Positions 22,696 to 28,738 of a stretch of DNA of 42,722 nucleotides are shown one piece after another. The position numbers were made by a program, and so were the translations under genes. Positions within the stretch are counted from its first letter, which is position 1, and each line of letters opens with the position of its first letter. Below the pieces are notes generated by a model, which saw nothing but the letters and a program-made list of their open reading frames with translations, did not search any database and was not told where the DNA came from. The DNA is from Chloroflexota bacterium (GTDB lineage Bacteria; Chloroflexota; Dehalococcoidia; Lucifugimonadales; UBA3495), in NCBI GenBank assembly GCA_027624135.1, contig JAQBXL010000012.1:1-42722 (forward strand). The letters run 5' to 3'.

Positions 22696-24390
22696 TTGTC
22701 CACAGATACCGTTATCAAAGACGCTATGGATTCCTTGCTTAGGGCCCGTCCCGGGTTCTGGTCCCGAACGGCTTGCGGCGTCACCCGGTCATTGGCGCCC
22801 ATCCAGGCATTATTGGACCGGAATGCTTATTCCATCGAGACCTCCCGGACCCGCATCCTCTTGGTCGGCGGCCTTTCTGGTGAGGAGGGCGACGTGAATA
22901 TGGCGCTTCACGCCCTGGAGTTGTTCGCTGGTGGCGGTGACGCCCTTTCTCTGCGTATCGCGCTCAGCGCGGTGCCGTGCGCCAATCCCGACGGCCTGCG
23001 CCTGAACGCTGCCCCCGGCAACGGAGCGGGCGGCAATCCCTCCGGCACCTACCCGCCTGAAGGCAAGTTCTATTATGACCCGGAGGAACCTGAGAAACGC
23101 TATTTGTGGCGGTGGATCTGCTCCCAGGCCCCCGATCTGGTCTTGGAATTGAAGGTGGGCACGTCGGTTACTTGGGAACACAACCAGGCTGGCCAAAACC
23201 TGGCGCCGGGACTCGCCGCAAAAATCATCTCAGGTGAGCAAGGGCTTCTGGCGGCCCTTGGCACCGGCCATCCCGACGGCCTGGGAACCATACCGGGACT
23301 GCGGTTCACTGCCACGGAAGAGCAACTGCCCAGGGAGCTGAGCCGTTTGTTCAGCATGCTGCGGCACCTAGATGTGCTGACGAAGTCCGACGCGAGGAAG
23401 GCATTGGACACCCGCCGCGCCCGCTCAAGGATGGAGATCGCGAATGTGCTGGCATCGGCATACGGCCACACGTTCAACCCTGTCGTTTACACCCAGGGGG
23501 TACCTATCAGTGGCCGGCTCAGATTACACGCCTTGGAGCCGGAAGGAGAAAACCCGGCGAGGGATATCGTCCCGTTGCTGGAGTCATTTACCTCGGCCGG
23601 CCTGCCTCAAGACCTGGCCCCATCGGCGTTGGCGTCGGTGGTCTGGGCCGAAGAATTATCCGATATCACCGGGGACGCGCGCTATAACAACCTCGTCATA
23701 GCCGCCGCGAACCGGTTCGAAGCGACTGGCCACGGCAGCGCTCCCAAACCCTGCGATCCCGATTTTCGCACCGAAGACATGTTTATGAGCGGGGCGATCC
23801 TGGGAAGGGCGTTCAAGCTGACCGGGGACACAAAGTACGCGGATATCTTGGTGAATCTTTTGTTGGACGGGAGGATCCAGCAGGACCACGGTCTGTTCTG
23901 GCACTGCCGCCTGTCTGCCTACTACTGGGGCCGGAGCAACGGGTTCGCCGCCATGGGCTTGGCCGAATCCTTGACCTATCTGTCGCAAGATCACCTCCAA
24001 CGCCCAGCGGTACTGTCGATGTACACCCGGCTCATGGCTTCGCTACGTCGGTTGCAACACCCGTCCGGTCTCCTGACCCAGGTGTTGGACTTTCCTGGGT
24101 CGTATCTTGAGTTCACCGTCACCTGCATGATGGGCTATGCCATGGCCCGTGGACTCCGCTTGGGGCTCCTCTCCAATGAATTCCGGGAGACCGTTGACCT
24201 GGCTTGGCAGGGAATAGCGGAGCGCATCGACGAAGTCGGCAACGTGGTGGATGGCTGCGCCAGCACCGGTGTGCAGAATAACGTCCGGGATTATCTGGAC
24301 CGTCCGGCCATCTTCGGCTTTGACGACCGCAGCGGCGGAATGGCCCTCTGGTTTGCCGTGGAGATGGAACGGCTAGACCGCGGGATCTGA
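22696..24390 (+). CDS. M14-carboxypeptidase-like domain fused to a GH88/GH105-like barrel
   Basis: A 564-residue protein starting at TTG behind GGAAGG. Residues about 50-200 resemble M14 zinc peptidases or deacylases: RILLVGGLSGEEGDV (53-67), VPCANPDGLRL (93-103) and APDLVLELKVG (145-155). However the two zinc-ligand His positions read Ser61 (usual GGxHGxE) and Lys153 (usual DLxLELHxG), so the site looks dead. Residues about 290-560 resemble the alpha/alpha barrel of unsaturated glycuronyl hydrolases (GH88/GH105): TEDMFMSGAILGRAFKLTGD (Asp361 a candidate catalytic residue), YYWGRSNGFAAMGLAESL, and a closing SGGMALWFAVEMERL helix. There is no signal peptide. It may act on intracellular uronic or aminosugar compounds. 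Domain borders and the barrel family are judged from motifs only. Confidence 0.65.
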   Translation: MSTDTVIKDAMDSLLRARPGFWSRTACGVTRSLAPIQALLDRNAYSIETSRTRILLVGGLSGEEGDVNMALHALELFAGGGDALSLRIALSAVPCANPDGLRLNAAPGNGAGGNPSGTYPPEGKFYYDPEEPEKRYLWRWICSQAPDLVLELKVGTSVTWEHNQAGQNLAPGLAAKIISGEQGLLAALGTGHPDGLGTIPGLRFTATEEQLPRELSRLFSMLRHLDVLTKSDARKALDTRRARSRMEIANVLASAYGHTFNPVVYTQGVPISGRLRLHALEPEGENPARDIVPLLESFTSAGLPQDLAPSALASVVWAEELSDITGDARYNNLVIAAANRFEATGHGSAPKPCDPDFRTEDMFMSGAILGRAFKLTGDTKYADILVNLLLDGRIQQDHGLFWHCRLSAYYWGRSNGFAAMGLAESLTYLSQDHLQRPAVLSMYTRLMASLRRLQHPSGLLTQVLDFPGSYLEFTVTCMMGYAMARGLRLGLLSNEFRETVDLAWQGIAERIDEVGNVVDGCASTGVQNNVRDYLDRPAIFGFDDRSGGMALWFAVEMERLDRGI

Positions 24391-26935: not shown

Positions 26936-28738
26936 ATGCTCGCGATCTCCGTAGCCGTGGGGCCGGGAGACTTGGCGCTGGCCGGAAACGACTACTCGCG
27001 GTTTGCCTTGCAGCATTACTCTGAGCTGGACCAGTACTGGGAAGTCTTGGATACGACCCCCAAGCCATATGATTCCGCCGTTGTGGCCTATACCGGCAGT
27101 CTAAGCCGGTTCGCGCTCAGCATCGCTCCGGCCGCTGTCGCCCGGGCAGCTGCAACTGCTGCTAGGCCAGAAAATGAAACTGCTGCGCTCGACACGCCTG
27201 GACCTGAACCGACAATCACCATCGCGCTGGCAGCAAGCCCTATTCCGGTGCCGACAGCGACTGGGCTGCCGACCCCAACTCCCACGCCGGTGTCCACTGG
27301 GCCTGTGGCCCTAGCGCCTGCATCGGTCTCAACTCCCACAATGATTCCATCTCCGATACCAACGCAGACTCCGGGCGTCTCGCCGACCCCCACCGCAACT
27401 CTCACTCCCAGCCCGACACCTATACCGACGCCCTCGGCAACGCCATCACCAACTCCAACGCTGACAACCCCTACTCCTGTACCAACGCCGACGCCGACAA
27501 CCCCCACGCCAACGCCTGTTCCAACCCCAACATCGACGCTGACCCCCACTCCTACTCCAACAATGACTCCGAGGCCAACGCCTGTTCTTACTCCGACGCC
27601 GACCTCGACGCCGACCCCAACGCCGACACCGACGGCCACGCCCGTTCCCACACCGACCCCAACTTCGACACCGATTCCAACGCCTTTCCCGACATCGACT
27701 CCAGTGCCGACACCTGCTCCCACCGCTACTCCAGCATCGACCCCCACTCCGACACCGACATCGACGGCTGTTCCGACACCGAGCCCAACGTTTACCCCGG
27801 TACCATCTCCGATCCCAACGTCAACGTCAACACCAACGCCCACGCCCACGCCCACGCCCACGCCCACGCTGAGTCCCACTCCTACGTTGACGCCGACACC
27901 TGCCCCGACAGCTACTCCTACGCCTACACCTACGCCGACGCCAGTTCCCGGTGGCAGAATCGCATTTCAGTCAGACCGAAGCGGGAATTTCGAGATCATG
28001 ACCATGGGTTTGGATGGTTCAAATCCAGTGAATATCACGAATCATCCAGCGTCCGATTTGGATCCGTCGTGGTGTGGTAGCGGAACCCTGACATTCGTCT
28101 CTGGCCGCGATGGGAATACGAATATCTACATCATGTCGGCCATCGGAACTGATCAGACCAGGCTTACGGATGGACCGGCAGCCGACCACTCGCCGGCCTG
28201 CTCGTCCTCAGGAGACCAGATTGCCTACAGCTCCGACGAGAACGGCAATGACGATATACATGTGATGAACCCAGATGGTTCGGGTCAGCAGCGTTTGACG
28301 ACCTCGGCTGCAGCGGATAATCATCCGGCGTGGTCTCCGGACGGCTCCAAGATCGCTTTTGTATCGGACCGCGACGGCAACCAAGAGATCTACGTGATGA
28401 ACTCCGACGGCACCGGAAAGGTCAATCTGACCAACAACTCTGGCGGAGATTCGGAACCATCCTGGTCGCCAAACGGCGCTAAGATCGCGTTCGCCTCCAA
28501 CCGTAATGGCGCCTGGGAGATCTACATGATGCAATCGGACGGTTCTGGAGCTTTTCCGCTGACGAATAACGGTACTGCGGACGGCGCGCCGAGTTGGAAT
28601 ATTACTGGGTCCCTGTTAGTGAGTCACAGTAGCCGAGACGGTAACGATGAGGTCTACAGAATGAGTTCCGTTGGTTCGTTTCAGACCAACCTAACCAACG
28701 ATACTTCTTCCGACAGTCACGCCGATTGGGAGTGGTGA
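26936..28738 (+). CDS. Pro/Thr-stalk beta-propeller surface protein (PD40/TolB-like), downstream part
   Basis: A 600-residue frame in phase with the upstream membrane-anchored frame. Residues 1-62 complete a ZU5-like beta domain ([27 protein letters not shown]). Residues about 102-338 are an extreme Pro-Thr repeat stalk of about 235 residues. Residues 340-600 hold six PD40 repeats (each with a [20 protein letters not shown] core and PSWSPxGxKIAF), forming a six-bladed TolB-like propeller. The likely role is a cell-surface binding or adhesion protein held away from the membrane. If translated alone from ATG 26936 it would lack any export signal, so function needs read-through or an intact allele. 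Confidence 0.7.
27239..27949 (+). repeat. Degenerate tandem repeats coding the Pro-Thr stalk
   Basis: About 710 bp of short C-rich repeats (CCNACN-type hexamers, for example runs of ACGCCC near 27835-27870) encode alternating Pro and Thr. Such repeats expand and contract easily. The opposite strand shows a Val-Gly frame that is only an artefact. Confidence 0.85.

Follow-up and report, generated by a model that had tools for sequence, protein, structure and literature searches.

The window, that is, the whole 42,722-nucleotide stretch of DNA that was analysed, specifies a 564 amino acid protein in which an M14-like domain without a zinc site is joined to a GH88/GH105-type barrel. The best reading of this protein, to which we give a probability of roughly 0.6, is a cytosolic and probably active enzyme, a variant of the GH88/105-like type whose M14-fold module is non-catalytic; it is classed with the GH88/GH105 kind, as a variant, and is not placed among the M14 peptidases. 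The architecture as such, an M14 fold followed by a GH88/105-type barrel, is firmly supported. The sequence-only reading had not recognised the pairing as a described one, and no description of it was found in the open-access literature; it looks like an apparently undescribed enzyme type. The gene and its two domains are as follows:

22696..24390, + strand: two-domain open reading frame, 564 amino acids plus stop, TTG start, intact, as had been proposed
22696..23385, + strand: N-terminal M14-fold domain with no zinc site, residues 1-230 (AlphaFold2 model with Z 19.1, and hhalign)
23422..24387, + strand: GH88/GH105-type alpha/alpha barrel, residues 243-564 (Pfam PF07470; Z 37.7 to YteR)

The gene was found in nine of the 11 congeners searched, at 76-84% identity and with one copy in two pieces. 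Matches at E <= 0.001, mostly full-length, occur in 29 of 60 related genomes, and a bacterial genome collection contains relatives on 189 stretches, from which the 78 best distinct loci were retained. Among the hosts of these retained loci are SAR202-like Dehalococcoidia, Caldilineaceae, Candidatus Poribacteria and Candidatus Entotheonella, together with two bins labelled Planctomycetaceae and Proteobacteria. The same two-domain order, which the earlier reading had proposed to look for in other genomes, is present in Chloroflexota, Poribacteria and Entotheonella. With so broad a recurrence, the open reading frame is no chance one but belongs to an established gene family. In one congener (L042, G007:C69:75225-76918) the gene is represented by two ORFs with a break near residue 203, where there are unreadable bases, reflecting either an assembly fault or a frameshift. 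The copy binned as Planctomycetaceae (L044, PBTE01000175.1) shares about 53% identity with the window protein, and its downstream neighbour is the one seen in the Chloroflexota loci L041 and L043; it is possibly mis-binned.

No signal peptide is evident in the 564 amino acid protein, in keeping with the cytosolic location suggested earlier, and the protein is presumably cytosolic. A full-length AlphaFold2 model built from an alignment of 57 homologues reached a pLDDT of 93.1 and a pTM of 0.93, the latter value suggesting that the two predicted domains pack on each other.

An M14 framework had been seen by eye in the N-terminal half, and structural comparison bears this out. Residues 1-230, modelled alone with AlphaFold2 (pLDDT 89.7), match carboxypeptidase B (Z 19.1 over 208 residues, 2.8 A), and carboxypeptidases B, A and T all superpose with Z of 18-19 over about 210 residues (Foldseek E 1e-9). 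A Pfam scan of the domain gave nothing, even at E 10, and its profile retrieved from the PDB sequences chance matches only (DsbA, interleukin-34), which were discarded. When the profile was run over 301 Chloroflexota genomes it recovered, besides the family, other proteins at E 1e-6 to 1e-2. One of these, L137 (E 2.9e-5), is a Pfam Peptidase_M14 protein (PF00246, 1.8e-19) possessing the motifs GGQHGGPE, NPDG, NRN and NYHSAGG. An hhalign comparison of the N-domain profile with the M14-like set that includes L137 gave a probability of 96.8% and an E-value of 2.9e-10 over 123 columns, a region which stops before the column of the M14 catalytic Glu270. Homology to PF00246 proteins is supported by these alignments, indirectly, by way of this set, and the sequence evidence does not depend on the fold comparison. 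A second M14-like group of about 405-412 amino acids is present in other Chloroflexota (L133, L134, L140, L141 and L143); it has GTSQGAE at the first His motif but retains YLEFHAH, and it is possibly another degenerate M14 family.

The positions of the N domain that were compared with true M14 proteins are:

22876..22878, + strand: Ser61, column of the first zinc His (hhalign); never His in 56 rows
22885..22887, + strand: Glu64, column of the zinc Glu, not conserved; Glu in 5 of 55 rows
22984..22995, + strand: NPDG motif, residues 97-100, common to true M14 proteins (profile alignment)
23152..23154, + strand: Lys153, column of the second zinc His (hhalign); no His in 57 rows

The by-eye placement of Ser61 and Lys153 at the two zinc His columns was right, as the hhalign alignment with true M14 proteins demonstrates, and it extends to the family. 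At position 61 the 56 informative rows contain S (35), R (9), T (6), N (3), D (2) and A (1); a lone His at position 153 occurs in one congener (L004/L046), which is not in the 57-row alignment. The loss of both His ligands stands, and Glu64, the third ligand, although found in the window protein, is so rare elsewhere that the whole set is gone. Ligand loss is a family property, and the alignments give firm support to a pseudo-M14 status. The Asn-Arg (NRN) anchor that holds the substrate carboxylate in M14 enzymes is likewise replaced in the family consensus (hhalign).

Pro120, Pro121, Glu133, Trp138, Arg139, Glu151, Trp160 and Arg203 are invariant or nearly so, and this conservation is what speaks for an N domain that is still a hydrolase, by way of a different metal site or of none. 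We hold that to be highly improbable, since no invariant His/Cys/Asp set able to bind a metal was seen, the carboxylate-binding motif is lost, and the conserved PE and YLWRW look structural because they sit at the SEPET motif of true M14 proteins and its helix. Among eight close relatives dN/dS was about 0.02-0.12 in the N domain and about 0.06-0.12 in the barrel, values to be trusted no further than their order of magnitude, as synonymous sites are near saturation in several pairs. With strong purifying selection, on a par with that on the barrel, the N domain is a pseudoenzyme domain that has been maintained, and not debris.

The M14-like domain is not obligatory, since the barrel occurs without it in a related clade. 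Eleven proteins of the same class lack the N domain, most of their open frames being about 325-380 amino acids, and no gene for an N domain was found near them in ten loci read over 5-17 kb. These stand-alone barrels form one clade (99/96), which the best tree nests within the fused set. A tree uniting all fused proteins in one clade is an alternative that the test does not reject (p-AU 0.26), so that one gain of the N domain is not distinguishable from one loss.

The C-terminal barrel had been assigned to the GH88/105 type, correctly, with a start at residue 290, which is to be moved to about residue 243. It matches PF07470 (GH88) at 3e-32, with 112.4 bits against a curated cut-off of 26.6, and residues 243-564 superpose on YteR over 319 residues (Z 37.7, 2.4 A, 23% identity) as a complete (alpha/alpha)6 barrel. 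A match to the NCBIfam BglB model lay far under its cut-off and was not retained. In YteR the residues that matter are Tyr41, Asp88, His132, Trp141, Asp143, Met147, His189, Trp211 and Trp217, and YesR and RhiN have Asn at the position of Asp88 (PMC4528949). Active-site columns were taken from a profile alignment, a MAFFT alignment and a column table, the MAFFT set comprising the fused family, its stand-alone relatives and six canonical GH88/105 barrels of other Chloroflexota; the counts cover 47 fused, 11 stand-alone and 6 canonical sequences. The corresponding positions are:

23488..23490, + strand: Tyr265, equivalent of YteR Tyr41, invariant (profile alignment, column table)
23623..23625, + strand: Ser310, in the column of YteR Asp88, the Asp being lost (MAFFT, column table)
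23767..23778, + strand: R358-T-E360-D361, in the column of the W-x-D catalytic motif (MAFFT, column table)
23902..23904, + strand: His403, equivalent of YteR His189, invariant (profile alignment, column table)
23926..23946, + strand: W411-G-R413-S-N-G-F417, equivalents of YteR Trp211, Arg213 and Trp217 (profile and MAFFT alignments, column table)

The column of YteR Asp143 holds Glu360 in the window protein and Glu in all 47 fused and all 11 stand-alone sequences, against Asp in all six canonical ones. It is adjoined by Asp361, which is Asp or Glu throughout the clade (Glu in two of the 11 stand-alone proteins), and Arg358 takes the place of YteR Trp141 in a column that is mostly Arg. The sequence-only reading had noted that a second catalytic Asp was not evident near HCRLSAYYWGR. 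This holds for the Asp itself; the acid is not missing, being the invariant Glu360, 43 residues before His403, by a D-to-E change. At the Asp88 column Asp is found in none of the 47 fused and in two of the 11 stand-alone proteins. HMMER puts YteR D143 a few residues later, and the 3k11 and MAFFT alignments were preferred. A weak phmmer alignment had set Asp361 on the Asp88 hairpin of YteR, implying that a 70-residue hairpin was missing; this pairing was ruled out, the model having a complete barrel, the profile alignment spanning YteR 30-325 and MAFFT placing E360 on the W-x-D aspartate.

Ten residues, namely Glu360, His403, Trp411, Arg413, Asn415, Phe417, Glu472, Arg536, Asp543 and Arg545, are invariant in the 47 fused and 11 stand-alone sequences. 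Arg536 and Asp543 are uncommon among canonical barrels, and Phe417, which replaces YteR Trp217, is a constant of this clade. Judged from this conservation, the barrel is probably an active enzyme. With the Asp88 equivalent lost and Asp no longer the residue at 143, catalysis could be weakened or altered and, since two defining residues differ, the protein is not counted as a proven GH88/GH105 member. These same changes, with the lost zinc site, are the grounds for regarding both domains as pseudoenzymes and the protein as a sensor or scaffold, which we consider very unlikely given that the acidic, His, Arg and Trp pocket set is invariant in 58 divergent sequences from several phyla, as in an active site.

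An unsaturated uronyl hydrolase of the ordinary GH105/GH88 sort, with a further domain that is passive and a D-to-E change that is neutral, would agree with a Pfam GH88 score well above cut-off, with YteR as best structural match and with the retained pocket residues, but it is hard to reconcile with the Asp88 column of the 47 fused proteins and with the Arg that mostly replaces Trp141. A GH78 rhamnosidase lies near the gene in nine Caldilineaceae loci, and a PfkB-type sugar kinase, identified by eye, lies shortly downstream in one SAR202 subgroup, both of which would suit such a hydrolase. Against it, KduI and the Hepar_II_III lyase, the only two lyases/isomerases searched, are absent from 25 related genomes, which speaks against the classic unsaturated-uronate route. 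A cultured SAR202 strain, furthermore, is reported to possess few glycoside hydrolases; it responds to rhamnose, fucose and their acids (PMC10444878). The ordinary hydrolase is rated as unlikely. The Asp88 loss and the absence of KduI and the lyase from those 25 genomes also weaken the earlier proposal that the enzyme completes the degradation of lyase-cut uronates. Uronic acid degradation is attributed to sponge Anaerolineae and Caldilineae (PMC6306507).

The neighbours of the window gene specify an MmgE/PrpD protein, a luciferase-like monooxygenase, a metallo-beta-lactamase fold protein, a cNMP-binding protein and an alpha/beta hydrolase, and they largely recur in the genus. Between lineages the neighbourhood varies and no single one holds; the neighbourhoods do not fix the pathway. 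GMC-like oxidoreductase genes, recognised by eye, occur nearby and in several cases directly adjacent in five fused and three stand-alone loci (raw counts). They would be in line with a barrel acting on C3-oxidised (3-keto) glycosides, or on some other oxidised sugar that a GMC oxidoreductase produces, with hydratase chemistry on an elimination product; the elimination of 3-keto glycosides by enzymes is itself an established route (PMC10628242). There is no GMC gene beside the window gene, and we regard this possibility as quite unlikely.

A DUF1800-DUF1501-NHL group stands beside both fused and stand-alone genes. DUF1800 is reported in operons with chitin synthase (PMC5122149). Genomes of the window's genus and family each have 7-15 copies of it, a paralogue expansion seen in G000 and its relatives. 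A link to the DUF1800/DUF1501/NHL neighbours is diluted by this multiplicity and is suggestive only. Directly upstream of the gene in one subgroup (L053, L062 and L063) are a cytochrome P450-like protein (by eye) and an AIR-carboxylase/LarB-like protein, and a LarB-like gene also lies upstream in L051 and L104-L106. An iron-containing alcohol dehydrogenase lies directly or closely downstream of the gene in about a dozen relatives; from 24391 onward the window has none, a cNMP-binding protein coming next. Further on, at 26936-28738 (+ strand), a 600 amino acid ORF contains a long Pro/Thr-rich repeat (PTPTPTP...) followed by a TolB/PD40-like beta-propeller, and the repeat opens long ORFs on the opposite strand that are probably not genes.

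For the variant enzyme with a non-catalytic M14-fold module, the following mode of action is proposed. The barrel, which retains a carboxylate at the catalytic position (Glu360, with Asp361 adjoining), the catalytic His403 and the Trp, Arg and Tyr of the sugar pocket, would be an active carbohydrate enzyme. Glu360 may serve as general acid/base, adding water to a bound sugar derivative or otherwise cleaving it, and the substrate would be something other than the unsaturated uronyl disaccharides of classic enzymes. No peptide or acyl chemistry would be performed by the M14-like domain, which, packing on the barrel, may stabilise it or shape access of the substrate. The binding or scaffolding role proposed earlier for the M14 part may apply; what the evidence establishes is its maintenance by selection and its absence from the related stand-alone clade. 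A more specific form of the proposal is tentative and rather doubtful as it stands: a new carbohydrate-active family derived from GH88/GH105, with Glu for the catalytic Asp, a new and perhaps oxidised or rhamnose/uronate-linked substrate, and a zinc-less carboxypeptidase domain recruited for substrate recognition.

Chloroflexota of the marine SAR202 type are abundant, and the oxidation of resistant organic matter is ascribed to them, yet little is known of their substrates. Here a conserved sugar enzyme common to them and to sponge-associated Caldilineaceae, Poribacteria and Entotheonella offers a concrete, testable handle. It would also exemplify how a peptidase fold is retained in a carbohydrate enzyme as a module without catalysis, for which the related proteins without the M14-like module are a natural control.

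Among known systems the whole barrel fold is shared with YteR (GH105; PDB 1nc5/2gh4), the unsaturated rhamnogalacturonyl hydrolase of B. subtilis, and the equivalents of Tyr41, His189, Trp211 and Arg213 are kept. The two differ in that Asp143 has become Glu360, Trp141 Arg358 and Trp217 Phe417, Asp88 is lost and identity is 23%; YteR, moreover, has no M14-like domain. The best PDB sequence match is 3k11 (profile E 5e-34), a putative glycosyl hydrolase of Bacteroides thetaiotaomicron, whose WLDDMFM aligns with RTEDMFM of the window protein and which retains W-x-D. With the M14 zinc carboxypeptidases (PF00246; carboxypeptidases A, B and T) the N domain has in common the fold, the NPDG and PE motifs and a distant homology, whereas it possesses neither zinc ligands nor the NRN anchor and is fused to a glycosidase-type barrel. 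The inactive M14 domains of animals (carboxypeptidase D domain III, CPX and AEBP1) also have the M14 fold without catalytic residues and are kept by selection; those proteins are extracellular or secretory and have no glycosidase partner.
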